DNA of 24,376 nucleotides. Origin: a virus. Location of the stretch: positions 1 through 24,376 of IMG/VR virus record IMGVR_UViG_3300017741_000052; one strand, given 5' to 3'. Below are positions 314 through 21,086 of this stretch, piece after piece; the first letter of the stretch is position 1, and every line of letters begins with the position of its first letter. The translations under genes and the position numbers were made by a program. The notes below the pieces were generated by a model. That model searched no databases, was not told the DNA's origin, and saw nothing but the letters and a program-made list of their open reading frames with translations.

Positions 314-1505
314 GTTTCGCGCGTCTAGGTAAAAGTTTGTCCCTGGCGTAAGCCGACCGCACTTGCGATCGCGACGCATGGCTTAGCTGAATCTCTGACA
401 CTTCGTCATCTTCCGCATTTGTCACGCGGCACCAATCCTTAAACGTCGTGCGAAAGCCGTGCATCGTTATTGCCTTACCTTCGTGATCTTCGAAACCGTG
501 CAGGCTTAGCTCTTTGCGCATCGCTGCCTCGCTGATGTGCTTGTTCGTTCCGCTGCTGAAAACGTAAAGCGGCATGTCACTGTAATTAAATAGGGCCGTT
601 TTTTTTGCGGTGATTAGCTCTCGCAATTGTGCTGGCAGCGGAATCTCCAAACGATATTCAGTCTGTTTGCTGCTTAGCTTTGCAATCGGCGCGTGCCATA
701 CGTTGCCATCGAAGTCTGACCACCGCGCTGAGCGCACGTCGATCTGTCGCTGCGCCGTCATCATCACCATTTGCAATGCTCTGGCGCTTTCGTTGTTTCG
801 CGATTGCAGCTGCCTATACAGAACCGGCGCTTGCGCGTGATGCAGTGCCGCTTGGTGCTGAACGGTGCCAGTGTATTTTGGTAGAAGGCGCTGTATGCGC
901 GGGTTAGCCGGGTTTGCGACGTTTATATAGTCACAGTCGATGGCGTACTCGAAGACTTCTTCTATATACATGCGAACGCGCATTGCTGTTTCGTGCTTTT
1001 CTAGCCAGATAGGCGACAGAATTCTTTGAATATCGGCCTTGCTGATGTCTGCCAAGGCTTTGCTGCCAATCACGCCGTAGGCATGCGTAACTAGGCGATT
1101 TTTCCACGTTTGCGAGCTCTTTAGCGGGCTCTTCCACCCTGGCACTTTAACTCGACTAATGAACTCGTCGGCCACGTCGGAAAATGTCATCGCAGCGTTG
1201 GTAGCTCTGCGCGAGCTAGCTTTCTTTTCTTGCCTCGCTTTTTGTAGTTGCTCGGCTGGTACTCCCTCGCCTGCAACCATGCTGGCCATAAGCTCTTGCG
1301 CTTTTTCGCGGGCCTGCTTGAGAGTTATTTTGCTGGTGCTGCCGAGCGATCTGTCTAATCGCTTTCCGTCCACCATGTACCGTAGTCTGTACGATTTATA
1401 AACTTTACCGTTTTTCTGATCTGCTTTTACATAAAGGTTGTCATCGACTCGATGCATCCCTGGTTTATTAATCGCTTCAACTTGACGCGCTGAAAACTGC
1501 TTCAT
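276..1505 (-). CDS. int: P4-type tyrosine recombinase (phage integrase)
   Basis: This 409-aa site-specific recombinase would insert and excise the phage chromosome. The N-terminus (about 1-75: KSYRLRYMVDGKRLDRSLGS) is the arm-binding DUF4102-like domain, followed by a SAM-like core-binding domain (about 105-210) and the catalytic domain (about 225-409). Visible catalytic residues, numbered from the ATG: R253 (in TAQRQIDVR), a Lys near 276-280, H349 and R352 (HGFR), H376 (LSHAS) and the nucleophile Y386 (RSAYARDKLL). The set is complete, so the enzyme looks active. I chose ATG at 1505. A TTG 24 bases upstream would add WAKVWAK-type residues, but these are simply the translated TTTCGCCCACA repeats and would leave almost no leader after the candidate promoter. 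The gene faces away from attP and converges with the putative xis. Confidence 0.93.
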   Translation of the reverse strand: MKQFSARQVEAINKPGMHRVDDNLYVKADQKNGKVYKSYRLRYMVDGKRLDRSLGSTSKITLKQAREKAQELMASMVAGEGVPAEQLQKARQEKKASSRRATNAAMTFSDVADEFISRVKVPGWKSPLKSSQTWKNRLVTHAYGVIGSKALADISKADIQRILSPIWLEKHETAMRVRMYIEEVFEYAIDCDYINVANPANPRIQRLLPKYTGTVQHQAALHHAQAPVLYRQLQSRNNESARALQMVMMTAQRQIDVRSARWSDFDGNVWHAPIAKLSSKQTEYRLEIPLPAQLRELITAKKTALFNYSDMPLYVFSSGTNKHISEAAMRKELSLHGFEDHEGKAITMHGFRTTFKDWCRVTNAEDDEVSEIQLSHASRSQVRSAYARDKLLPRRAKLMQRYADFLATS

Positions 1506-1532
1506 TTTCGCCCACACTTTCGCCCACAATGT
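1505..1532. repeat. Left pair of TTTCGCCCACA direct repeats (candidate Int arm sites)
   Basis: TTTTCGCCCACA (1505-1516) is followed by TTTCGCCCACAATGT (1518-1532). The same pair in the same orientation recurs at 1687-1714. Four copies placed symmetrically about the presumed core fit arm-type integrase binding sites. This copy abuts the integrase start codon and the presumed transcription start, so bound integrase could repress its own gene. Confidence 0.65.
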
Positions 1533-1539
1533 GTCGCCG

Positions 1540-1569
1540 AATATGGCACTTTATGTCACTTGCAGTCAA
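1540..1569 (-). promoter_or_regulatory. Candidate integrase promoter
   Basis: On the minus strand a -35-like TTGACT (1569-1564) is separated by 18 bases from a -10-like CATATT (1545-1540). Transcription would start near 1533, inside the repeat pair, leaving about 28 bases of leader before the ATG at 1505. The -10 matches the consensus only partly, so this is a suggestion from pattern alone. Confidence 0.35.
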
Positions 1570-1603
1570 TTGTGCTATTGTAAGTCATTGATTTTGTTAA
1601 CGT

Positions 1604-1621
1604 ATGTCAAACCATGTCAAA
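1604..1621. repeat. Tandem ATGTCAAA repeat with 10-bp period
   Basis: ATGTCAAA occurs at 1604-1611 and 1614-1621, exactly one helical turn apart and just before the tRNA-like core. A related ATGTCA lies at 1553-1558. Tandem sites one turn apart are the usual arrangement for cooperative binding by small winged-helix proteins such as Xis. The ligand is inferred. Confidence 0.45.
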
Positions 1622-1647
1622 TGGTTCGATGTCGGCTCCGGGCACCA
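1622..1647. other. tRNA 3'-end-like sequence, candidate att core
   Basis: The stretch contains GGTTCGA, resembling a T-loop, and ends CTCCGGGCACCA. TCCGGGC plus A-CCA is the 3' acceptor strand of bacterial tRNA-Leu genes that begin GCCCGGA. The part corresponding to the T stem does not pair properly, so this is not a tRNA gene. It looks like the tRNA-matching core that phages carry to rebuild the host gene after integration. The tRNA-Leu assignment is inferred from the acceptor strand only. Confidence 0.5.
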
Positions 1648-1686
1648 ACTACCTATATAAATCAATGACTTAGGGATACTTAGGAA

Positions 1687-1714
1687 TTTTCGCCCACATT
1701 TTCGCCCACAATGT
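1687..1714. repeat. Right pair of TTTCGCCCACA direct repeats (candidate Int arm sites)
   Basis: TTTTCGCCCACA (1687-1698) and TTTTCGCCCACAATGT (1699-1714) copy the pair next to the integrase start in the same orientation. They end three bases before the stop codon of the last late gene. The shared tail ATGT shows that the duplicated unit is about 27 bases, not just the 11-base core. Confidence 0.65.
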
Positions 1715-5697: not shown

Positions 5698-7644
5698 TTA
5701 GCTCGCTGGTAGTCCGATGTTTGTGCCGGTGCCTCTGCTAGTGCTCGTCAGCGGGTTAGGCAGCAAGCCAGCACCACTGCGAAGCACGTCAAACATGCGG
5801 AATGGATACTCTCTAGCCTCTGCAAATCTGCGGTAACGATCATCAAGCAGCTGCTGCGCCGCGGCTTGCTGCTGACCGCCAACTCCTTGTAGCGCCGCCG
5901 CGTCCGCAAACTGCGTGCCGCGTAAGTCGCCGCCAAGATTCGCCAGCTGGGCAGCTGCGCCCTGGCGCATGCCAGACGCCTGCATGCCGGCTCGCTGGTT
6001 CGCGAGCGCCGCCTGCAACCCTGCGTCGGCGTTAAAACGCTGAGCATCGAAACCAAGTTGCTGGTTGCGCAGCGCCGCGTTTTGATTAGCCAAAGCCGCA
6101 CGCATCTGTGCGTCTTGGTTCGCCAGCTGTCCGCGCTGATCAAATTGCGCCGCTTGGATGTTGCCTTGCTGCGTTGCTTGTTGCGCTGCCAGGTTGTTGG
6201 CCGCGTTTAGCTGTCCGGCGCGCATAAAGTTTGAAGCTGATGTGGTGTCGGCTGCTAAGCCTGCTTGCTGGTTGGCCAGTGCTGCACGCATGTTGGCGTC
6301 CTGCGAGGCTAAACCGCTTTGCAATCCCATCTGAGCCATCTGCTGGCTTGCTTGTTGAGCTCTGCCTGCCGTGTCTTGCGCAGCTGTCAAAGACGCCCGC
6401 TGATTTGCTTGCTGGCGCGCCAAGTCTGCCTGCAGATTCTGGCCGCCAGCTGTTAAGCCGGCTTGCTGATTCGCGAGAGCTCTTTGTGTGTTTTGTTGCT
6501 GCGAAGCTAAACCGCTTTGCAACCCAAGGCGCGTTTGGTCTGCGCTTGCTTGTTGATTTGCTAAGGCGCGTTGCGTGTTTTGTTGTTGAGCAGCCAAGCC
6601 TGACTGCAACGCTTGTCGGCCCGTCTCCGTCTGGCCTTGCAAGCCAAATTGTCCGCTGGTGGTTGCTGCCTGCAAATTTGCTTGTTGGTTAGCCAAATTT
6701 GCTTGTTGGCCAAATTGCGCCGACTGAGCGCCAGCTTGTTGCGCACGATTTAGATCCGCTTGCGCCATTTGTTGTGCGTTCTGGAAGCCTTGTTGGCGTA
6801 AGTTGACTGCCGTGCGCGCTGCTTGATCTGCGAAGTTTCTGTTTGTTTCGGCTTCAACAAGGGCCTGCCGATCACCGCCAAACGCACCAGCTGATACTGC
6901 GCTTGCTGCGTTTTGGTTCTGCGTCATTTGCCGAGCGCGGTTTAAGTCGCCAAGCGCCGCGTCAATAACTCCGGTTGTATATTGACTTTGGTACGGGCTC
7001 AAATTTGTACCAGCCAATTGCTGAGCCTGCACAGTCTGGCCTTGCACCTGCTGTGCAGATATCGGGTCTACGCCGATTTGATTCGTTTGCACCGCTCCCG
7101 TCTGACCAACGCGATCTATTCCATCAACGCCAACAGCACTTGTCTGGCCGACCTGCGGAGCATTCAAAGCAGATAACGGCCCAATTTGTTGGGCGTTAAT
7201 GCCTTGGCTTTGGATGTTACCGACACCCACTGGCCCTGTTGGGCCTACTTGCTGAGCATTAACGCCCTGTGCCTGCACCTGCTGATTACGAATAGGATCA
7301 AAGCCAAAGCCGGTTTGCACGTTCGATGCGCCTACATTACCAACCTGCCCTGGCGCAGTAATCGACCCGGCAGTTACTTGCGATGGCTGGAAACCTGTTT
7401 CTGCCCGCGTCGTCGCAATCGCATCGTTGATCTCGCCTTGACCTACGCCGGCCCGTGCGGTGTTTGCGGCCATGTTCATGCCTTCAAGTTGCGCAGGGGC
7501 TAATGGCGCAACCGTTGCGAAGTCGTAAGGCGTGTAAGGGGTTGCTGCGACACGCTGCCCTTGGCGAAACGTGTCAGTCAGAAGCCCTTTTAGCTCTGGG
7601 TCAAATGTTTGCTTAGAACTTGATTTGTTTTTTCCTAAACTCAT
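5698..7644 (-). CDS. Gln/Ala-rich repeat protein, probable virion (tail or ejection) protein
   Basis: This 648-residue protein has three zones. Residues 1-95 include ATPYTPYDFATVAPLAPAQ, a short motif I know from phage proteins in this position. Residues about 98-212 are low-complexity with recurring QQVQAQ, GVNAQQVGP and GINAQQIGP units. Residues 213-600 begin with SPYQSQYTTGVIDAALGDL and AGAFGGDRQALVEAETNRNF, then become a long Gln/Ala helix carrying repeats of LQSGLA-Q-RALANQQA at 346-365, 376-395 and 441-460. The C-terminus (600-648) is globular (YRRFAEAREYPFRMFDVL). It is almost cysteine-free. The context is the ejection/tail cassette. Role inferred: an elongated structural protein. The ATGA start junction couples it to the 203-aa gene. 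Confidence 0.65.
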   Translation of the reverse strand: MSLGKNKSSSKQTFDPELKGLLTDTFRQGQRVAATPYTPYDFATVAPLAPAQLEGMNMAANTARAGVGQGEINDAIATTRAETGFQPSQVTAGSITAPGQVGNVGASNVQTGFGFDPIRNQQVQAQGVNAQQVGPTGPVGVGNIQSQGINAQQIGPLSALNAPQVGQTSAVGVDGIDRVGQTGAVQTNQIGVDPISAQQVQGQTVQAQQLAGTNLSPYQSQYTTGVIDAALGDLNRARQMTQNQNAASAVSAGAFGGDRQALVEAETNRNFADQAARTAVNLRQQGFQNAQQMAQADLNRAQQAGAQSAQFGQQANLANQQANLQAATTSGQFGLQGQTETGRQALQSGLAAQQQNTQRALANQQASADQTRLGLQSGLASQQQNTQRALANQQAGLTAGGQNLQADLARQQANQRASLTAAQDTAGRAQQASQQMAQMGLQSGLASQDANMRAALANQQAGLAADTTSASNFMRAGQLNAANNLAAQQATQQGNIQAAQFDQRGQLANQDAQMRAALANQNAALRNQQLGFDAQRFNADAGLQAALANQRAGMQASGMRQGAAAQLANLGGDLRGTQFADAAALQGVGGQQQAAAQQLLDDRYRRFAEAREYPFRMFDVLRSGAGLLPNPLTSTSRGTGTNIGLPAS

Positions 7645-8835: not shown

Positions 8836-10310
8836 CGTTTGCTGCCCTCGCGCACATCGAGCCGCATGGTGCCGACGCGCCAGCTGCTAGGCGTGTTGCC
8901 GGTGACAGTCATCTGCACCTGGCGTCCCTGAAAGCGCACGCTAGTTGGGTTTGCCATGTCGAACGGGCCAAACGTGCTCTCATCTGCATTAGGGTAAAAG
9001 CGCGTCTTAAATGTGGCAGTCACGTCGCCCTGCGTTTTCTCGTCAGGTATCAACGAGGTCGCGACCATCATGCGGTCGCCGTTACCCAGCTGCAGCGGGC
9101 CAGTTTGCGCAAAGACCGCGCTGCCAGAATCATAGGCATAGCCGACTTCGTGCTCGTAGATGTAGCCGTCTGGGCTGGCGTAGTTAGGGAAAACAAACGC
9201 GCCAACATCGACGCCAGCCGTGCGAGCCAGAGTGCCAATCTGCCAATGGTTCTCCATATAGTTGTAGGAGACGTAGCTGTCGTTTTCGCTTGACCCGCTG
9301 CTGGGATAAAACCAAATGATCTCGCTGAAATTGCTGTTCTGTACGGCGTAAACCTTTGACCGCTCGGTGACGTTAAGGTTCTCAAAGATGAAGTCGCCGA
9401 CGCTGCTACGCAGCGGCTGCACGCTGCCGTTGTAGACAAAGAAGCCGTTGTTGCTCATCCAATAGGCCGCGCCGCCGGCTGTCGCGCATGCATTGGCGCT
9501 TATGACGCCGCACGCCGTGCCGACTTGCTGGAAGCCGTATATGAATGGCGGGCCTTGGTATCTGGCCGTATGTGCGTCTGTATCTGTAAGCAGCAACGTC
9601 TCGCCGCGCATGCGCTTGCCGGCCATAAGATTGCCGTCTGTCGCCAGGGTGAAACTGCCTGCCTGATTTGTAGCTGCGGGCGTCCAGACGTTGCTCTGTT
9701 CTTGATCAGAGAACGCAACCTTATTGCCAACGCCACCAGCCCCTAGCGCGAACACGAAACGCTCAGAGCTCACGACAATTGCGTTGTTGCCGGTAGGCGC
9801 GTTACTCAGTAACGCGGCTGCAGACGCCGGGCTGTTGGCCCACTGGTAAATCTTGCCGTCGCTCGTTGCTGACGCAATGACATACTCGCCAAATGTGTCT
9901 AGCGACCAGGTCGTTGCCGGCGTGTACGCGCCGCTGTCGGGTCTTGGCGTATTCCAAGTGCTAGCGCCCCATGTCAGTCCGCCATAGCCAAGGTTCTGTA
10001 CTGCGTCGGCGTTGCCTGTTGTGAAGCCAGTGGGCGTGATGTCTGTGACTGTGTTGTCTTCGCCAATGAAGTACAGGTTCGTGTGCGTGCCTGCGACTGT
10101 GCGCCGGTTGCGGCTGTTATCAAGGTATGCGATCAACGCACGGCAAACGCCGCTCATGGCCGACGTCGTGCGAGCTCGCCAACCGCCTACAGGCTGCAGT
10201 GAACCTTCGTACCAACGCACAAGGTTTGCGTCAGACCATGTGTTGGCCTGCTGCAAATCGGTGCCGTTTTTAACGACGCCGGGTGGCGGCGCGATGTTAT
10301 GCAAAGACAC
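8832..10310 (-). CDS. Probable tail / packaged-DNA-stabilisation-like protein
   Basis: This protein of about 492 residues is rich in beta strands, Gly, Asn and Trp. It opens with SLHNIAPPPGVVKNGTDLQQ and then WSDANLVRWYEGSLQPVGGW. The pattern 'PPGV..NGT..Q....W.DANLVRW.EG...PVGGW' marks a family common in short-tailed phages. Repeated GxxxYW/W blade-like strands suggest a beta-propeller, as in P22 gp10-like tail accessory factors. The frame is open up to a TTG at 10328, but GTG at 10310 is preceded by AGGTGA at a good distance, so I chose it; the gene then overlaps the lysozyme end by 14 bases. The gp10 relation is inferred from length, composition and position. Confidence 0.6.
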   Translation of the reverse strand: MSLHNIAPPPGVVKNGTDLQQANTWSDANLVRWYEGSLQPVGGWRARTTSAMSGVCRALIAYLDNSRNRRTVAGTHTNLYFIGEDNTVTDITPTGFTTGNADAVQNLGYGGLTWGASTWNTPRPDSGAYTPATTWSLDTFGEYVIASATSDGKIYQWANSPASAAALLSNAPTGNNAIVVSSERFVFALGAGGVGNKVAFSDQEQSNVWTPAATNQAGSFTLATDGNLMAGKRMRGETLLLTDTDAHTARYQGPPFIYGFQQVGTACGVISANACATAGGAAYWMSNNGFFVYNGSVQPLRSSVGDFIFENLNVTERSKVYAVQNSNFSEIIWFYPSSGSSENDSYVSYNYMENHWQIGTLARTAGVDVGAFVFPNYASPDGYIYEHEVGYAYDSGSAVFAQTGPLQLGNGDRMMVATSLIPDEKTQGDVTATFKTRFYPNADESTFGPFDMANPTSVRFQGRQVQMTVTGNTPSSWRVGTMRLDVREGSKR

Positions 10311-12662: not shown

Positions 12663-14837
12663 TTAGCTCTCCAGTTGTGCAACACGGTTGCGTAATGATT
12701 GTATTTCTTTAACGAGCATTGGGACTAGCTTTGAGTAGTCCACGCCCATCATTTCGTCTGAGTCAGGGTCACCACCTACAGCTTCTGGTGCAACAGTCTG
12801 TAATTCCTGTGCAATCATGCCGTAACGCTGATGTTCACCGTCAGCAATCCAATCAAACTGACGTACTTGGATAGCGTCGATTAGTTCGCCAGCGTCCTCT
12901 GCTGCGTTTGCGATGTTGGATTTAAGGCGTTGGTCTGATGAAACTTGATAAAGAACTTGTGACGTTCCGTTCTGACTAATTTTGCCTATTTCCGATGTAT
13001 TGTAGATAAATGACGCATAAACAGCGCCAGAAGAAGTTCCGTTTGCGTGTCGAATGTAAATATCAGAGCTACTGGCACCACCTGCAATAGCAACGCCAGA
13101 TTGAGCGCCCGACCCAGTGGTAGTAGTACCCACCAGCAAGTTAGTGCCTATATTAGCAATGCCTGCTAGGTGAAGGTCTTTGAAGCGGTTATCCGATCCG
13201 CCAAGGTCTATAGCGGCATCTCTAGCGGCACCAGCAGAAGTAGCTGGGCGAACACCGTCAGAACCAAATGACAAGAAAGCATCGTTACCTTCTGTACAAC
13301 CTATATACAAAAAGCCACTGTTACTACCAATACTACCTACGGCTGCTCCTGCTTGTCGAAATTGTATAATGTCTCCATCATCAGTCATGCGGTTAAAATA
13401 ACCAGAAATACCGCCGCTGCGTGCAATACTTAAATAACCAGAGGCACCAATGGCTGTACCTGAAGTTCCTGAATTATCGTGTGGGAATGTATCAGTACCC
13501 CCCACCAGCAAGTTGCCACCAGAGATGCGCATGGCTTCTGTGCCACCAGTCTTAAACTGTATAGACTCAGTGCCAAACTCAGCACCACTATCAGCCGTTA
13601 AAACTAAAGAGCCACTTAAGCCTTGTATCGTTGCGTCATAATTGTTGTCAGTGTCGGTAAACTTGAGAGTTGGTACAGCATCGCTTAGCGTAATGTTGCC
13701 AGTAACGTCTATGCCTGTGGAGGTGGCTGTAAGGACTGAAGTTCCAGATGGTTTTAGAAAAATACTGCCAGAAGCGCTTGATATAGATAAGTCGCCTGTC
13801 GGCTGGTAAATCGTATTGCCTGTATCAGCCCCTCCGACTCTTAGCCCATTTAGGTAAGAGTTTGCGTTAGTAGTTACGCCGCCAGTAACGTCGATGCCTG
13901 TGGAGGTGGTGTTTAATTTTTCAGCGCCGTTGTAATAAAGCTGTACTTCACCGTCATTCTGGCCCAAGAACATTTTGTTCCCGTCACCATCGGTAATCCT
14001 AACGTTAGCTTCGCCTTGAATATATAAATCGCCAGTGCCTTGATCTTTGATGTAGCTATTAGACCCATCGTGATACAAAGCAAGGTCTGAGCCAGCACCG
14101 AAGATAGCCTTACCGTTGTCAGCAAAGCTAGCGTTACCTGTTACGGCGATGCCTGTGGAGGTTGTGGCTAGTTTTGCTGAACCGTTATGAAAGAATGTGT
14201 TGGCACCACCAGAAGTCAAATTAATTAAATTTTGTGAACCTGCGGCGTTATAAATGTTTACATTATCACCAAAAATTTGAAGGTCGCCTGCTCCACTTTC
14301 TTTGATATTGCTGTGCGTACCATCATGATAAATCTGTAGGTCAGATCCAGCACCAAAGATGGCCTTGTCGTTGTCGCCAAAGGATATGTCGCCAGTGGTC
14401 GTTAGATCCGAAACATTCGCAGACAACCCACTTAACGCATCAACCACAGCAGCACCAGAGCCAGCACCGTCTGTGACAATGACTTTTACAGCACCAGCAG
14501 TAATAGCAACATTAGCACCAGAGCCTTGACTGAAAGTGAGGGTAGCGGAGGTCTCATTGCTGATGATCCAGACTTTTGAGATCGTGTTTGGCGCAAGCGT
14601 CACGGTGCAAGCTTGACCACCACCAGTGCATTTGAGGTACATGCTGCGCGCCTCATCAGCAACTCCATCTGCCAATGTAATAGTGTGCGTCGATGCATTA
14701 GGGATCGTCTCACTACCCTGGCCAAACGCAGACGCAATGTTGCGGATGGTGGTGTTGAGGAGTGAGCCCCAAGTTCCCGCATTGGACCCCGACTCCTGTT
14801 CGCGCACGCGAAGCGAATTGGAAAAGACGTCAGCCAT
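12663..14837 (-). CDS. Tail fibre with C-terminal S74 intramolecular chaperone
   Basis: This 724-residue fibre would bind the host surface. Residues 1-140 form the virion-attachment part (starting MADVFSNSLRVREQESGSN). Residues about 145-630 are repeated beta modules with FGAGSDLQIYHDG, SNIKESGAGDLQI and the linker TSTGIDVTG, typical of trimeric fibres in aquatic phages. Residues 633-724 are a peptidase-S74 chaperone: SDQRLKSNI with catalytic S634 and K639, RYGMIAQELQTVAPEAV, then the trimerising end EIQSLRNRVAQLES. In this family the chaperone cuts itself off before the Ser, which would release about 91 residues. The start ATG has GAGGA seven bases upstream. Confidence 0.88.
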   Translation of the reverse strand: MADVFSNSLRVREQESGSNAGTWGSLLNTTIRNIASAFGQGSETIPNASTHTITLADGVADEARSMYLKCTGGGQACTVTLAPNTISKVWIISNETSATLTFSQGSGANVAITAGAVKVIVTDGAGSGAAVVDALSGLSANVSDLTTTGDISFGDNDKAIFGAGSDLQIYHDGTHSNIKESGAGDLQIFGDNVNIYNAAGSQNLINLTSGGANTFFHNGSAKLATTSTGIAVTGNASFADNGKAIFGAGSDLALYHDGSNSYIKDQGTGDLYIQGEANVRITDGDGNKMFLGQNDGEVQLYYNGAEKLNTTSTGIDVTGGVTTNANSYLNGLRVGGADTGNTIYQPTGDLSISSASGSIFLKPSGTSVLTATSTGIDVTGNITLSDAVPTLKFTDTDNNYDATIQGLSGSLVLTADSGAEFGTESIQFKTGGTEAMRISGGNLLVGGTDTFPHDNSGTSGTAIGASGYLSIARSGGISGYFNRMTDDGDIIQFRQAGAAVGSIGSNSGFLYIGCTEGNDAFLSFGSDGVRPATSAGAARDAAIDLGGSDNRFKDLHLAGIANIGTNLLVGTTTTGSGAQSGVAIAGGASSSDIYIRHANGTSSGAVYASFIYNTSEIGKISQNGTSQVLYQVSSDQRLKSNIANAAEDAGELIDAIQVRQFDWIADGEHQRYGMIAQELQTVAPEAVGGDPDSDEMMGVDYSKLVPMLVKEIQSLRNRVAQLES
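13700..14166. repeat. Three near-identical DNA repeats in the fibre gene
   Basis: The plus-strand text ATGCCTGTGGAGGT recurs at about 13711, 13894 and 14149, each inside a longer 25-28-base near-match that encodes the linker TSTGI-VTG. A second pair, about 40 bases long and less exact, lies at roughly 14082-14127 and 14340-14380 (the AIFGAGSDL module). Such repeats could let modules recombine. Only short repeats are seen; no transposon or diversity-generating template is implied. Confidence 0.6.
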
Positions 14838-14847
14838 TATTTAATCC

Positions 14848-15435
14848 TCAAGCTGCCCGCTGCCATGATGTGCTGGCGCTAGGCTGTTGTATGTAGGTCG
14901 TGCTTGCGCTGGATTCATTTGACCAGCTGGTTGCGGCACCCGGTTCGGTTTGCCATTTAATTTCGCCAGCAGCCGTGACTGTGCTTTGAGCACTGATCGC
15001 TGCAGCGCCAAAACGGATTTGACCGCCACTTGCCGTAAACGTAGAAGCAGCCGCGATGTTAGCTCTGCCGTTGAGAATGGTGCTGGACGACGCAGTGACT
15101 GAGCTCGTTGCGCTAATCGAAGCAACTGCGCTGACAACCACGTTTGCATTCGCGCTAACGCTAGACGAAGCCGCAATGACCGCAGCCGCGTGCCTAAACC
15201 GCTGGCCGCTTGCTGTAACCGTTGAAGAGGCTGAGACTGTCGCGCCTGCCTCCCTAACGCGCCCAGCATTGGCAGTAACCAAAGCGCTAGAACTGATAGC
15301 TGCCGCAGCGTTTGCCACCACCTGCGCAGCCGCTGTAACGCTCGCTGAAGCAACGACAGTCGCGCTAGCGTCGTAGTAGCTCCATTGACCATACCGACCA
15401 GCATTCCAACTACCGTTTCCATATCCCTGACTCAT
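14848..15435 (-). CDS. 20-residue tandem-repeat protein, likely beta-solenoid virion protein
   Basis: This 195-residue protein has an aromatic/Gly N-terminus (MSQGYGNGSWNAGRYGQWSY) and seven repeats of exactly 20 residues. Their anchors [AS][STL]VTA fall at 31, 51, 71, 91, 111, 131 and 151, followed by G/A-rich turns. A Trp/Ser C-terminus (SW at 170, 190) ends it. Small residues alternating at fixed spacing indicate a narrow beta-solenoid. I know similar A-x-V-x-A-x-SVTA repeats in short-tailed aquatic phages; the function is unproven, possibly a tail spike or decoration. The gene sits between the 127-aa protein and the fibre and starts right at the stop of its neighbour. Confidence 0.65.
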   Translation of the reverse strand: MSQGYGNGSWNAGRYGQWSYYDASATVVASASVTAAAQVVANAAAAISSSALVTANAGRVREAGATVSASSTVTASGQRFRHAAAVIAASSSVSANANVVVSAVASISATSSVTASSSTILNGRANIAAASTFTASGGQIRFGAAAISAQSTVTAAGEIKWQTEPGAATSWSNESSASTTYIQQPSASTSWQRAA

Positions 15436-15828: not shown

Positions 15829-16455
15829 CTATTGGAGCGCAGCCGCTCTCATTTTGACGCTGGTCTGGCCAGCCGTTCGTTGGTTGCTCACTTCCAGGTC
15901 ATCAATCGCTCGCTGGTAAAGGCTCGCCCATACCGTGATGCGCTCGTCGTTCTGCAGGTAAGGTGCGCTCTGCATCAACGTGCCGTAGAGATAGATGTCT
16001 GGATTGTGCGTGAGCAGCCAGTTGCTTGTGTTCGTGTCAGACAAAGCCGCAATCTTTGCGTAGTAAACGAGCTCTGCCGTGTACCCGGTCGCCGTATTGT
16101 CTGGTGACGGAAAGACCTGTATCTCAGTGCCGACGTGGCTGTAGCGCGATGGCGTGCCAGTAGCACTGCTGCCAGACTTCAGCGTGTTAAGCGCCTCGTT
16201 CGTGACAAACTCCATCTGCGTTACTGGGTTAGTCTCTAAGATAAGACTGACCGTCTGTATCCAATCTGCCGGGGTTGCGCTGTACTCGCTGTCGATCGTC
16301 GCTTGGGATCGAGTGATCATGTAGCGATGGCGGATGCTGCGGTTAAACTGCGATTCCGCCAAAGCCACAAAGTCACCTATCGCACTCGTCAGATCCGTGC
16401 GGTTTAGCCAATCGGCTACGCTCGCCTGGAGCTCTGAGTACGTCGAGATCGCCAT
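15829..16455 (-). CDS. Head-tail adaptor, SU10-adaptor-like
   Basis: This 208-residue protein would bind below the portal ring and link the head to the tail. The N-terminus MAISTYSELQASVADWLNRT, then FVALAESQFNRSIR, and the later YTAELVYYAKIAALSDTNTS-NWLL with LYGTLMQSAPYL are strongly characteristic of the phage adaptor family typified by SU10 and related short-tailed phages. Length is normal. It overlaps the 108-aa gene by one base (ATGA) and lies four genes after the portal, as expected for head-completion proteins. Confidence 0.82.
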   Translation of the reverse strand: MAISTYSELQASVADWLNRTDLTSAIGDFVALAESQFNRSIRHRYMITRSQATIDSEYSATPADWIQTVSLILETNPVTQMEFVTNEALNTLKSGSSATGTPSRYSHVGTEIQVFPSPDNTATGYTAELVYYAKIAALSDTNTSNWLLTHNPDIYLYGTLMQSAPYLQNDERITVWASLYQRAIDDLEVSNQRTAGQTSVKMRAAALQ

Positions 16456-16781
16456 CAGATACGCGCGTCTCGCGTGCGGAACGCGCGGTTATCCGGGTCG
16501 TTTAGCCATGCCTTCATCTTTTTAGGATCGTCGGCAATGCCTCTCGCTTTCAGGTCGTACAAGACGCTCAAGGGAATAGACGCAACCTTCGACCACTCAC
16601 CATGCTTTTGGTGTCGATCTTTTTCGTTACGGGCTCGCTTGTTCGCCTCAACGATTGCAGTCACGTCTTGCGATGTCGCAATGGTGATTTTGTCGTCTTT
16701 TAGCGTCTCGCCGGCTTCGTAAACGAAGTCTGACTTGATGCCGGTTGTGGCATCGTTAGACAGGTTGCGTTTTATTTCCAT
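16455..16781 (-). CDS. Conserved small protein between capsid and adaptor genes
   Basis: This 108-residue, charged and helical protein contains HGEWSKVASIPLSVLYDLKA and ends KAWLNDPDNRAFRTRDARI. The 'W..VA.IP..V......GI......K..LNDP..R.FRT' pattern recurs in phages with this type of capsid protein, in the same position. The function is unknown; head completion or capsid assembly are the likely options. It starts at ATG nine bases after the capsid-gene stop and is coupled to the adaptor by ATGA. Confidence 0.62.
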   Translation of the reverse strand: MEIKRNLSNDATTGIKSDFVYEAGETLKDDKITIATSQDVTAIVEANKRARNEKDRHQKHGEWSKVASIPLSVLYDLKARGIADDPKKMKAWLNDPDNRAFRTRDARI

Positions 16782-16790
16782 TGATTAGTC

Positions 16791-17759
16791 CTAGCTCGTG
16801 GATAGGTCAGCCACAACGCCCAGACCAGCCTCTTGAGTGACGACCAAACCATACTCAGCCAAAGTGAGGAACTTGGTTGCGTCGCCAGTCTTCGCTAACT
16901 CCTCGGCCTGGATTGGGCGAAGCGTTGCAACCTCACACATATCTGGGTCGATGACGTAAGCGTCGCGTGCGCGGCTCTTGGTAGAAGGTACGATCTGAAC
17001 GCTACCAAAATCGCTAAGGTAGACGTCAGCCGCCCCAACAATTGTAGTAGGGCCGTCAGAAGGCGCCATGTAACGCTGAGCAGCAATGCCCGCAAAACTA
17101 GAGATCACTGTCTTAACGTGAGGCCCAACCATGACAAACTGAGGCGAGCCCCCGTTGGAAAAGATTCCTTGCAGGACTGTTTTTAGCATGCCCTCGGTCA
17201 TGGCGCGCTGGGTGCCATCAGTAGCCGCGCCATTTACGACACCACCAGAAACAGTTGGGTTAGCTCCGTTCGTGCCGCGAGATGTGTTGGTTCTGATGAA
17301 CGCAGCCAAAGGCGCAGTCTTACGAGCAGTCGTGCTGTTGCCAGCGACAGCTGCATGGTTCAAACCACAGAGGTTATGTTCCATATCGTTAGCAAGGCGC
17401 TTGCCCGCTAAGCTGATCTGGTATGCGACTTCTGCCCGTCGCCCCGCCAAATCCAGAGCGCTCATCGTGTCTGACACGATGAAGTCTTTGCGACTGATCT
17501 GCGTGTAGTTACCCAAACGAGTTGTTGGAGTCACTGCGGTGAACGCAGCCAAGTCGTCGCCTTCCAAATGATGGTTAGCTGCAGCTGCGCCAAGATCATC
17601 AGTCTGCCATTCAAAGAATGTGTTTGTGACTGAGCGACTCTTGGTCATGTTGCTCATAAAGGGCCGAGTTTCGGGAGAAATCATAGTGATAATGTTAGAG
17701 AGATCTTCCCGCACGCCTTTGGCGTCGTACTTTAGAAAAGTGTTAGCAATAATGGTCAT
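16791..17759 (-). CDS. Major capsid protein, DUF5309 / SU10-like
   Basis: This 322-residue protein would form the icosahedral shell with the HK97 fold. The N-terminus is diagnostic: YDAKGVREDLSNIITMISPE followed by TRPFMSNM and VTNTFFEWQTDDLG, the 'RE.L.D.I..I.P..TPF......NT.F.WQ.D.L' signature of DUF5309/SU10-type capsid proteins. FMVGPHVKTVISSF and DVYLSDFGSVQIVPSTKSRA correspond to the axial domain and the end of the fold. Length is typical and no long N-terminal delta-domain is visible, consistent with a separate scaffold protein encoded just upstream. Confidence 0.9.
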   Translation of the reverse strand: MTIIANTFLKYDAKGVREDLSNIITMISPETRPFMSNMTKSRSVTNTFFEWQTDDLGAAAANHHLEGDDLAAFTAVTPTTRLGNYTQISRKDFIVSDTMSALDLAGRRAEVAYQISLAGKRLANDMEHNLCGLNHAAVAGNSTTARKTAPLAAFIRTNTSRGTNGANPTVSGGVVNGAATDGTQRAMTEGMLKTVLQGIFSNGGSPQFVMVGPHVKTVISSFAGIAAQRYMAPSDGPTTIVGAADVYLSDFGSVQIVPSTKSRARDAYVIDPDMCEVATLRPIQAEELAKTGDATKFLTLAEYGLVVTQEAGLGVVADLSTS

Positions 17760-17771
17760 TAGTTAAAGCCT

Positions 17772-18788
17772 TCATAAAAGAGATTCAATCAATGAGGCTG
17801 CATTTTCTGCAGTGCCTCGCTCTTTGAGACGTTGATACGCGGCTTTAGTTTTGCGAGCGCTTGGCTTCACCTGCTGTTGACGAGATCCTGACCTGACTGT
17901 CTTGCCCGATTGACCAGCCTTGCGTGCTTTACGCACCCGGCTCTGGCCTTTGTCAAAGAGCATCGCCTTTCGCAAAACTGCGATATGGCTAGCGCGCACA
18001 AGTGCGCCAAGCTCCTCTTCCGCAACGCCGCTATCGAGCAAATAGCTCTTTAGCTCTTCGCGTTCTTTTGCGGCTACCTTCTCGTCTTTCCACTCTGGAA
18101 TGACGTCAGGCAGTCGGGCTGCTTCCTGAGTAATTAGCCCGCGCATTTGCTGCTCTTGCTCTTGGGCGTTAGCGTCATTCACACGCTGCTGCTCTATCGC
18201 AATGGCCTGCATTTTTTGCGCTCGCTGCTCAGTCCGCTGTCGGTACTGTCGCTCAAGGCGACTTGCCTCAATCGGATCTTCTTCGTACATGCGATCGAAG
18301 TCCGGGGCTGGCTCGTCAAAAGCCTGTAGCTGCTGCTGCAAAGCTCCCAGTAACTGGGAATACTGTGTCCGCTCAAGAAGAACCGCGTCTCGGTCTTGTT
18401 GGAAGCTCTTCCGCTCTTCCGCTAATGTTTGGCTCTTCTTTGTATAGTCGGCCTGGCGCGAGTAACCGTTCTGAAGCTCATCAAGGCTAACCTCTACGTT
18501 TTCACCGTTTATCTTTACGGTGAATGTGTCGGCTTGCTCTTGTTCGCCCTCGTCCTCGTCGTAGTCGTCATCCAGGTCTTCGGCATCTTCTTCGTCTGCG
18601 TCGGATTCCTCTTCGGATTCTTCAAACTCAGCGCCTTCCAGTGCCTCGCCCCCCTCAAGGGACTCGTCAACGTCGCTTGAATCTTCGGCTTGCCCTTCGG
18701 GTTCCATCAATTTAGCGATAGCAGCCTGGGCGTCGCCCAAGGTGCCCCCCATATATGGGGTTTGTTCTGTATCTATTTTATCACTCAT
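17772..18788 (-). CDS. Capsid scaffold protein
   Basis: This 338-residue protein would guide capsid assembly and then leave the head. Residues 30-88 are extremely acidic (for example ESEEESDADEEDAEDLDDD). Residues 89-125 hold TFTVKINGENVEVSLDEL and NGYSRQADYTKK, a signature I know from phage scaffolds. Residues about 115-230 form a Gln/Arg/Glu-rich coiled coil. The C-terminus (280-338) is basic with a terminal helix, the usual capsid-binding end. No protease domain is present. It lies directly before the capsid gene and overlaps the 76-aa gene by one base. A 14-base palindrome lies inside its codons 10-14. Confidence 0.85.
   Translation of the reverse strand: MSDKIDTEQTPYMGGTLGDAQAAIAKLMEPEGQAEDSSDVDESLEGGEALEGAEFEESEEESDADEEDAEDLDDDYDEDEGEQEQADTFTVKINGENVEVSLDELQNGYSRQADYTKKSQTLAEERKSFQQDRDAVLLERTQYSQLLGALQQQLQAFDEPAPDFDRMYEEDPIEASRLERQYRQRTEQRAQKMQAIAIEQQRVNDANAQEQEQQMRGLITQEAARLPDVIPEWKDEKVAAKEREELKSYLLDSGVAEEELGALVRASHIAVLRKAMLFDKGQSRVRKARKAGQSGKTVRSGSRQQQVKPSARKTKAAYQRLKERGTAENAASLIESLL
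18747..18760. repeat. Perfect palindrome CCCCATATATGGGG in the scaffold start region
   Basis: The 14-base palindrome starts about 28 bases into the scaffold coding region and encodes PYMG. It shares CCCCATA/TATGGGG arms with the hairpin at 23905-23931. It could be an operator, a methylation or restriction-related site, or chance in coding sequence. Confidence 0.4.
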
Positions 18789-19018
18789 CAGTTATTCCGC
18801 TGTTTTGCGAAAGCAATCTCGTCGGCTGCTGCGCGCATCCGCACAACAATGTCGTCAAGGGCTTCCTGTTTTTGATGTAAGCGCTCCCGTACTCCGGGGT
18901 CACGTTCCTTGCACCACAGCTCGAAGAAATCGAGCCTTAGCATCTTGATGAGCTCGGCGAAGTCTTCGTCGTCCGCCAAGCGCTGTATGTTGAGAAGCGA
19001 GTTATGCGACAGGGACAT
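18788..19018 (-). CDS. Small helical protein between portal and scaffold
   Basis: This 76-residue protein was not recognised. It is charged and helical (LADDEDFAELIKMLRLDFFE, then a coiled-coil stretch LHQKQEALDDIVVRMRAAAD). It overlaps the portal end by 17 bases and the scaffold start by one base, so it is expressed with head genes. Small helical proteins in this position are common in related phages. A role in head assembly is plausible but unproven. Confidence 0.6.
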   Translation of the reverse strand: MSLSHNSLLNIQRLADDEDFAELIKMLRLDFFELWCKERDPGVRERLHQKQEALDDIVVRMRAAADEIAFAKQRNN

Positions 19019-21086
19019 TCGGCACCTGTTGTTGCGCGGCCAGCTGCCTTACGAGCTCGCGGTCGCGATCGGCGTTAGCGCGTATCCCCGCCACATCGAC
19101 CTGCGCGCCATACCGGGCGTTCATCTCCGCTGCTTTGAGCACCAAGTTGGCCTCACTCTCGTCACGCCTGCGGTCGTCCTCTCGAATCATCTTTTCGCGT
19201 TCGAGCTCTAGCTCTGCCTTCTTCTTTTCTATATTTGCGTTGATCTCCGCCATCTGCACCTGGATCAGCTGCGCCTCGATAGGTGGTTCCTGTGGCGCTG
19301 GTGGTGTCGGCGGCTGCTGACTTGGATCTTTGAAGAACCGCTGAGGGTCTTTGAAGCCAGAGACTTCCAGAATCTGCACCAGCGTCTGGTAGTAGTTCTC
19401 GACGCTGACCAGTGGGTTCTCTGGGCCAAGTTGCTGCAATAGCTGCTCTTGTTTTTCGGCGACCTGCTGCAGCATCTGCATACGCTCAACGTCGCCGCCC
19501 TTGCCAAGCGCTACATTGCTGACAACGTCCATGTCGGCATTCCAGCGATCAGGACTCATGGGCACGAACGTGTTGCGCAGGCGAATCATGCGCGGCTTGT
19601 CCATGTGCTTGATGATCAGCTGCAGCAAGCCTTTGTATAGCCGCGTCATGCCGCCGTCGGCAAACAGCCTGGCAATCATCTCGGTGCGTTGCTGAGCAGC
19701 CCCTATCGTCTGCTGCACGGCCATAAGCGTGCTGCTCTGCAATGCGCTAGGATCGAGCCCGTCAGCCGCCTTAGAGACGCCGGTGCGGTTTTCGCGCATC
19801 TGGTCGAGGTAATCGAGCATCGGGAAGGCTTCTTTGCCAACAAAGGGCAAATTGAATGGCACAACCGCGCCAGGCTGACGCATACGAATGACGCCGCCGG
19901 CTTCGTTGTTCATCACGTCTTCTAGGCTCGCTTGGCCTTCTACAATGCCGACACGCGGGTGAGTGCTCATCGCTAGGCTGTCAAGGCTCGCTCGCAGCAC
20001 GGCGGTCTTGATGCGCTGGATGTCCATCGTCAAATCAGCGATAGACATGCCAAACATCGCGTGCGGTTCTGGGTCTGGACAGAAGAACGCAAACGGCACC
20101 ATGTCGGTCGGCTCATTGCGCAGGATTTCGTAGTTAGGGCCGGCGCAGCAAATGCGTCGCAGTTCCGCAACGCCATCGCCGTCCGTATCGATCTTGGCGT
20201 ATGCCTCAACGTACAGAACGCGGCGCACCATCTCTGAGTTTTCAAACGAGCTCTGCTGGTAGCGCTCGCGGGCTTCGACGTTAAAAAGCTCGAAGTCTGT
20301 GTCGCTGGTGGTGGCGTATTGCTCGATCTCGTCGGCGTCGTAACCGAGCTCGACCATGTCAGAGATTGTCAGGTACGCCCGGTGCGCGACTAGGTCAGCG
20401 TCTTCAAGGCCGCGGGCATTGCGGTTAATGACGATCTCTTCGGGGGGCACCGACTCAACTTTGATCTTGCCAATCTTCTTGCGGTGCGTGACGCGAACGG
20501 AGTGCATCGCCTCTGGGTTTTCGCTCGACGTCATGCTCTTGAGCATGTCGATCTCAACGTCCGGGTTGCTGTTGAGCGCCGCCAGGGCTTCGTCGTCTAG
20601 GTTTTCGAGCTCGTAGCTCTGCGTCTTCTCTGACTCGTCGTAGCAATACTTGATAAAGCCAGAGCCCTTCACCAGCGCGTCTTTCATCGTCGCGTAGATG
20701 ATCTCGATGTACGACTGATCCTGGTCTTGATTCAGTATGTAGTTAACGTAGTCGGTCGCCTGCTTGGCCATCTCGACGTCTTCTGGGCCAGTAGGCGCGT
20801 ATTCCACAACGTGATCAGAGCCACAGAAAATGCGCATAAGAGACGGCAGCATCGCCTGTACGGTATCGCGCACGTCCATCGTTTGAGCCGTGCTACGACC
20901 CTCTTCTTCGTTGCCCAGGGGCTCGCCGGCGTAGTATTCCGCTGCGACTGCTCGCTGGGGCGAGATGGTGTTATCGATAAAATCGACGGCATCTTCGATG
21001 GCGAGCGTGATAGCGGCTTGGATCTCTTCAGCGTCCATGCCCATGTCTTCTTCGATGAATTCTTCGTCGTCGTATAGTTCGGCCAT
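19002..21086 (-). CDS. Portal protein, P22/SU10-like
   Basis: This 694-residue protein would form the twelve-fold ring through which DNA enters and leaves. An acidic N-terminus is followed by VRDTVQAMLPSLMRIFCGSD, VEYAPTGPEDVEMAKQATDY and YATMKDALVKGSGFIKYCYD (about 72-150), the portal wing pattern. The central part has NRNARGLEDADLVAHRAYLT and FAFFCPDPEPHAMFGMSIAD, then SLDSLAMSTHPRVGIVEG, typical of large podovirus portals. A Pro-rich linker and a long coiled coil (about 600-690) form the C-terminal barrel-like part. TAATG couples it to the 895-aa gene. Confidence 0.9.
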   Translation of the reverse strand: MAELYDDEEFIEEDMGMDAEEIQAAITLAIEDAVDFIDNTISPQRAVAAEYYAGEPLGNEEEGRSTAQTMDVRDTVQAMLPSLMRIFCGSDHVVEYAPTGPEDVEMAKQATDYVNYILNQDQDQSYIEIIYATMKDALVKGSGFIKYCYDESEKTQSYELENLDDEALAALNSNPDVEIDMLKSMTSSENPEAMHSVRVTHRKKIGKIKVESVPPEEIVINRNARGLEDADLVAHRAYLTISDMVELGYDADEIEQYATTSDTDFELFNVEARERYQQSSFENSEMVRRVLYVEAYAKIDTDGDGVAELRRICCAGPNYEILRNEPTDMVPFAFFCPDPEPHAMFGMSIADLTMDIQRIKTAVLRASLDSLAMSTHPRVGIVEGQASLEDVMNNEAGGVIRMRQPGAVVPFNLPFVGKEAFPMLDYLDQMRENRTGVSKAADGLDPSALQSSTLMAVQQTIGAAQQRTEMIARLFADGGMTRLYKGLLQLIIKHMDKPRMIRLRNTFVPMSPDRWNADMDVVSNVALGKGGDVERMQMLQQVAEKQEQLLQQLGPENPLVSVENYYQTLVQILEVSGFKDPQRFFKDPSQQPPTPPAPQEPPIEAQLIQVQMAEINANIEKKKAELELEREKMIREDDRRRDESEANLVLKAAEMNARYGAQVDVAGIRANADRDRELVRQLAAQQQVPNVPVA

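Follow-up and report, generated by a model that had tools for sequence, protein, structure and literature searches.

Positions 1506 to 1710 of the window (the whole stretch of 24,376 bases analysed) very probably constitute the attP of a temperate phage, whose P4-type integrase would use a host tRNA-Leu(UAA) gene as its target with the assistance of IHF and an AlpA-like excisionase. A sequence-only reading had already taken this region for an attP, and the proposal is sustained by the adjacent tyrosine integrase with its arm-binding domain, the P4 layout, a core that stays constant amid varying flanks, and the co-variation of the arm sites with the integrase N-domain. At the level of sequence, the anatomy of the site, its match to a tRNA, the domain assignment of the integrase and this co-variation are established.

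Layout of the site and its integrase

The arm repeats, an inverted repeat and the core all lie within a 211-bp gap between a small ORF and the integrase gene (int). The features recognised in and around this gap are the following:

110-313, + strand: AlpA-like excisionase (recombination directionality factor), by Pfam Phage_AlpA and PHROG excisionase; overlaps the 3' end of int
276-1505, - strand: P4-type tyrosine integrase with arm-binding (about residues 1-80), core-binding and catalytic domains, by Pfam, PHROG, residues and structure model
1506-1516, - strand: putative arm site, first copy of the int-proximal pair, reading TGTGGGCGAAA on the - strand and lying directly 5' of the int ATG; exact repeat whose type co-changes in relatives
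1518-1528, - strand: putative arm site, int-proximal pair, copy 2; same evidence of repeat and co-change
1541-1570, - strand: candidate excisionase sites, namely three direct repeats of 10 bp that read ATTGACTGCA, AGTGACATAA and AGTGCCATAT on the - strand; overlap promoter-like sequence
1581-1593, - strand: candidate IHF site (AATCAATGACTTA; consensus WATCAANNNNTTR) on the int side of the core, matching the consensus; makes up one half of the inverted repeat
1603-1622, - strand: candidate excisionase sites, a direct repeat of 10 bp present twice (ATTTGACATG / GTTTGACATA on the - strand), by lag-10 self-match
1623-1647, + strand (tRNA sense): core, tRNA-Leu(UAA) 3' end GGTTCGATGTCGGCTCCGGGCACCA; matches complete tRNAs and is identical in seven relative contigs
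1633-1647, + strand: CGGCTCCGGGCACCA, agrees with tRNA-Leu(UAA) without a break; strand exchange is predicted here, given the mismatches immediately 5' of it
1660-1672, + strand: candidate IHF site, distal to the core and matching the consensus; makes up the second half of the inverted repeat
1688-1698, - strand: putative arm site, distal pair, copy 1; exact repeat, type co-changes in relatives
1700-1710, - strand: putative arm site, distal pair, copy 2; exact repeat, type co-changes in relatives
1717-1923, - strand: 68-aa ORF bounding the attP distally; open reading frame without Pfam match, whose end aligns in relatives

The window contains exactly four copies of TTTCGCCCACA, which share the + strand and have their first bases at 1506, 1518, 1688 and 1700; the spacing is 12 bp inside each pair and 182 bp from pair to pair. 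This sequence is the only 11-mer of the window with this copy number, and a single Markov shuffle out of 300 gave any 11-mer with four copies inside 250 bp. The number, the single orientation and the pairing described previously hold by exact count, while the edges given for the pairs were off by a base or a few; that the integrase start codon (1505) abuts the arm sites had not been remarked.

The presence of tandem direct arm repeats on either side of the core, adjoining int, makes this a standard P4-type attP, with an ordinary layout that is already known. Coliphage P4 (X51522), in which arms and core are annotated, likewise carries its 12-bp arm repeats as two tandem pairs that all point the same way, towards int, with a tRNA 3'-end core between them and a P4-type integrase adjoining. 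It differs in having its own arm sequence (TGGGGGCATAAT), a fifth, inverted arm repeat at the start of int, and a core reading towards int, whereas the core of the window reads away from it; therefore, int would be expected at the end of the prophage opposite the intact tRNA. The idea that the layout was unusually tidy was abandoned after this comparison, since P4 and the relatives examined show the same plan, a tRNA core enclosed by two tandem pairs of 12-bp arms. Four copies, with pairs about 182-197 bp apart, are found upstream of integrases in the relatives L177, L179, L180, L182, L183 and L184-L186. In L182, a distant relative, the four arm-like repeats (GGTACCCA, positions 2259-2463) look inverted relative to int, unlike those of the window.

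In the integrase, Pfam recognises Arm-DNA-bind_3, Phage_int_M and Phage_integrase, the latter through a marginal match (27.2 bits against a cut-off of 27.1), and PHROG assigns the protein to integrase; residues R253, H349, R352, H376 and Y386 are invariant across 21 integrase sequences. The modelled N-domain contains a predicted four-stranded sheet (strands 16-21, 24-31, 34-45 and 48-56) and resembles the arm-binding domain of the HPI integrase (3jtz / 3rmp, Z 11.9 / 11.6, rmsd 1.5-1.6 Å), and the title of entry 3rmp refers to attP recognition by P4-like integrases. With the HPI/HAI7 arm-binding domains (3jtz, 3rmp, 3ju0) it shares the same fold over residues 3-81 (rmsd 1.5-1.9 Å), whereas the sequences are only 18-19% identical; a PDB sequence search with the N-domain alone returned chance matches only. 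We infer that this N-terminal domain may be the one that binds the arm sites.

The tRNA-like core and the candidate accessory sites

The sequence ending in CTCCGGGCACCA, located at 1636-1647 by a search of the window, and the 14-bp inverted repeat are both placed where they had been claimed. A scan of viral contigs with a pattern for this kind of tRNA end gave at least 120 stretches (L011-L130) with a tRNA-Leu(UAA) 3' end, of which some may be attachment sites and others are complete tRNA genes. ARAGORN recognised 69 complete tRNAs in the listed stretches, 68 of them Leu(UAA) and one Phe(GAA), which narrows the tRNA-Leu previously proposed, correctly, to tRNA-Leu(UAA). Compared with the commonest tRNA-Leu(UAA) form, the 25-bp core is exact over its last 15 bp and agrees at 23 of 25 bp in all, the differences being at T-arm positions 60 and 61. 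Among the matches listed, every tRNA-Leu(UAA) seen has one or two mismatches to the core, and all complete tRNAs have C at position 61, where the attP has T. The exact TGT version of the core was not seen inside any tRNA; among the viral contigs, it is confined to attPs of this group. ARAGORN called no tRNA gene anywhere in the window, so the core represents the 3' end of a tRNA only.

Taking into account these mismatches at positions 60-61, and provided that the overlap tolerates none, strand exchange should fall in 1633-1647, and the host tRNA would retain its own T-arm. The 25-bp core is constant in relatives and its flanks are variable. In the window, phage sequence lies on both sides of the core, which means that the phage was not inserted here in the form sequenced. 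The search yielded no integrated copy, attL/attR or host; a scan of genome contigs for integrated relatives gave only two integrases, with 31-32% identity, in whose genomes there is no core within two mismatches. Thus, tRNA-Leu(UAA) would be the integration site as deduced from the core.

The inverted repeat is perfect (1581-1594/1659-1672), with halves 64 nt apart, and is best read as two IHF sites, an identity absent from the sequence-only reading. The consensus WATCAANNNNTTR matches only these two places on both strands of the 24-kb window (0.56 matches expected by chance), and both lie between arm and core sites, as would correspond to an IHF-assisted attP. On the int side, the consensus is kept in 12 of 12 attPs, with variation only in the N4 spacer (TGAC, TCAC, CAAC, TAAC); on the distal side, it is complete in 8 of 12, the first W being lost in the other four.

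The int side of the attP is filled with 10-bp repeats, a feature that had also escaped previous description, and when self-similarity between core and arms was analysed, lag 10 was the best in 9 of 9 attPs tested. Recombination directionality factors are described as binding to direct repeats spaced by one turn of the helix (PMC7498355). In the window, an AlpA-family gene is found beside int together with helically spaced direct repeats in the attP, the combination that would be expected, by sequence, for an AlpA-like excisionase. The repeat unit is TTTGACAT-like in the group of the window and TGTTTCAT-like in a second group (L147, L148, L177, L179), and the putative recognition helix of the AlpA-like protein is STRTIRRKVES in the former and SRQSIWRKFNA in the latter; helix and repeats change together between groups. 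The 10-bp repeats can be regarded as candidate AlpA-like excisionase sites.

Arm and core types among relatives

Relatives were gathered in three ways: by integrase, by core, and by arm motif alone; no DNA relative was found among 50,697 phage records. Four arm types (TGTGGGCGAAA, TGGGTACAAA, TGGGTGATAAA and TGGGTAATAAA) are distinguished, and the copies within one attP switch together. The first 54 or so residues of the integrase switch along with the arm type, and the core tracks the remaining domains. Thus, L044, L131, L007 and L008 have the core of the window and about 95% of the rest of its integrase, but TGGGTACAAA at 4/4 arm positions; the contig L103 reaches only one arm pair. Between the window and L044-type integrases, 22 of the 37 amino-acid differences fall in residues 2-51 (hypergeometric 2e-13), and most of the varying residues belong to the four strands of the sheet predicted for the N-domain.

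The reverse situation is found in L147 and L148, recovered by arm motif alone, which have TGTGGGCGAAA at three of the four positions and a shortened degenerate variant, TGGGGCGAAAA, at the fourth. Their integrases are 78% identical to that of the window over residues 1-55 and about 50% over the rest, and their core is a tRNA-Leu(UAG) end. Five tRNA genes contain the L148 core without a mismatch over 22 bp, and the L147 core has one T-loop change; in 398 sampled genomes, this second (UAG) core found tRNA-Leu genes at two mismatches and no host. L177/L178 and L179 also have the tRNA-Leu(UAG) core, with TGGGTGATAAA and TGGGTAATAAA, respectively, in 4/4 copies. More generally, integrases about 50% identical outside the N-domain are accompanied by a tRNA-Leu(UAG) core in place of UAA. 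The same 3' end of tRNA-Leu(UAG), close to repeats and an IHF-like site, appears in a virus without a match to this integrase (L162, positions 9559-9581), where it is probably another attP for that tRNA.

When pairs of distinct proteins were compared for the N-domain and for the rest, identity in the N-domain was 1.00 for the same arm and the same core. Pairs with the same core and another arm gave 0.63 in the N-domain and 0.92 in the rest, those with the same arm and another core gave 0.78 and 0.51, and those differing in both gave 0.63 in the N-domain. These values come from a close group with only four arm alleles and from contigs that are not all independent, L177 being equal to L178 over attP and integrase, and L002/L039 being equal to the window here.

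On balance, we favour the view that two modules evolve or recombine separately, one formed by the arm domain and the arm sites, and the other by the catalytic part and the tRNA core, together with the excisionase and its repeats. The arms would turn over faster than the target, perhaps against cross-talk between relatives sharing a tRNA, and an arm code is hinted at (e.g., residues 25, 40 and 44 versus arm positions 3 and 5), although residue-to-base assignments from four alleles are only suggestive. Recombination around the site is likely, since the flanks are mosaic (on the structural side, L044 is 63% identical to the window and L147 88%). Tandem TGGGTACAAA pairs also occur in viruses where no relative of this integrase is detectable (L140-L143, L145) or only a distant one is present (L144, L146), so the arm motif alone does not identify the system.

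The integrases of lambda and HK022 are also two-site enzymes with an N-terminal arm-binding domain, and the sites for IHF and Xis lie between those of arm and core type (PMC4880445). There, integrase specificity is known in outline to have changed naturally from one related phage to another (PMC8371274); in contrast, the group of the window shows the arm and core halves of specificity changed independently between close relatives. The literature searched, with partial coverage, contained no description of such a double exchange of arm and core. These viruses constitute a natural domain-swap series, with a shared core and different arms, or shared arms and a different core, each with the matching integrase domain, and provide ready-made pairs for learning how a β-sheet arm-binding domain reads DNA. 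They also pose a testable question, namely what makes four arm sites that lie apart change in concert.

Proposed mechanism, alternative readings and gene context

Protein binding, bending, crossover point, regulation and direction control can be proposed as follows. The N-terminal β-sheet domain of the integrase would bind the four arm sites, and the central and catalytic domains the core; IHF would bend the DNA at its two inverted sites flanking the core, allowing the arm pairs to reach it. Strands would be exchanged within the final 15 bp of the tRNA-like core, so that the phage is inserted at the 3' end of the host tRNA-Leu(UAA) gene and the tRNA stays intact, and binding of the AlpA-like protein to the 10-bp repeats between core and int would favour excision. 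A promoter-like sequence for int (1569-1540, - strand) spans the second 10-bp array, just upstream of the int-proximal arm pair. In the KplE1 prophage (IntS/TorI module), the integrase promoter overlaps the attachment region with its arm and excisionase sites, and negative autoregulation, Int and excisionase repressing int, has been demonstrated (PMC2951348); KplE1 differs in its core and its excisionase. By analogy, Int and the excisionase probably repress int in the phage of the window, because the 10-bp repeats and the int-proximal arms overlap its promoter region and 5' end.

The same facts could suggest that the repeats are just operators of a transcription regulator controlling int, the tRNA-like stretch being incidental: the int-proximal copies abut the start codon next to the promoter-like sequence, and the autoregulation reported in KplE1 (PMC2951348) involves sites overlapping the attachment region. 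This reading is hardly credible, taking into account that a tRNA 3' end is retained in all close relatives, that another tRNA-Leu 3' end is substituted where the catalytic domain differs, and that the distal pair occupies the place of P4's second arm pair; as KplE1 itself illustrates, a regulatory role can coexist with an attP.

Within the attP reading, the nature of the target and of the inverted repeat also admits other interpretations. A tRNA-Phe, or another tRNA sharing the TCCGGGCACCA end, might be used instead of tRNA-Leu(UAA), given the single Phe(GAA) among the 69 complete tRNAs of the matches listed and the lack of a host in the searches; the 68 Leu(UAA) of the same set and the sister group, whose core is also from a tRNA-Leu (UAG), make this very unlikely. 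It is improbable, to a lesser degree, that the inverted repeat forms a hairpin with a structural role or provides two integrase sites of the core type, as its perfection and its position flanking the core might indicate. Both halves fit the IHF consensus exactly and nowhere else in 24 kb is it matched, the changes in relatives fall mostly in the N4 spacer or the first W, with loss of perfect pairing, and both sites are retained around a different core.

Elsewhere in the window, the proteins of SU10 type encoded at 15829-21086 (major capsid, portal and adaptor) accompany the integrase and excisionase, and a lysozyme is also encoded; by its gene content, this is a temperate phage with SU10-like head genes. 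The record (24,376 bases) is a fragment, since the terminase is cut by the window end. The - strand also encodes a large protein with a C-terminal Peptidase_S74 chaperone domain (12663-14837), likely a tail fibre or spike, and a 648-aa Gln/Ala-rich protein with many near-repeats and no Pfam match (5698-7644). Two long overlapping frames of 193 and 195 aa at 14841-15435 (- strand), one of them alanine-rich, are probably a compositional effect.
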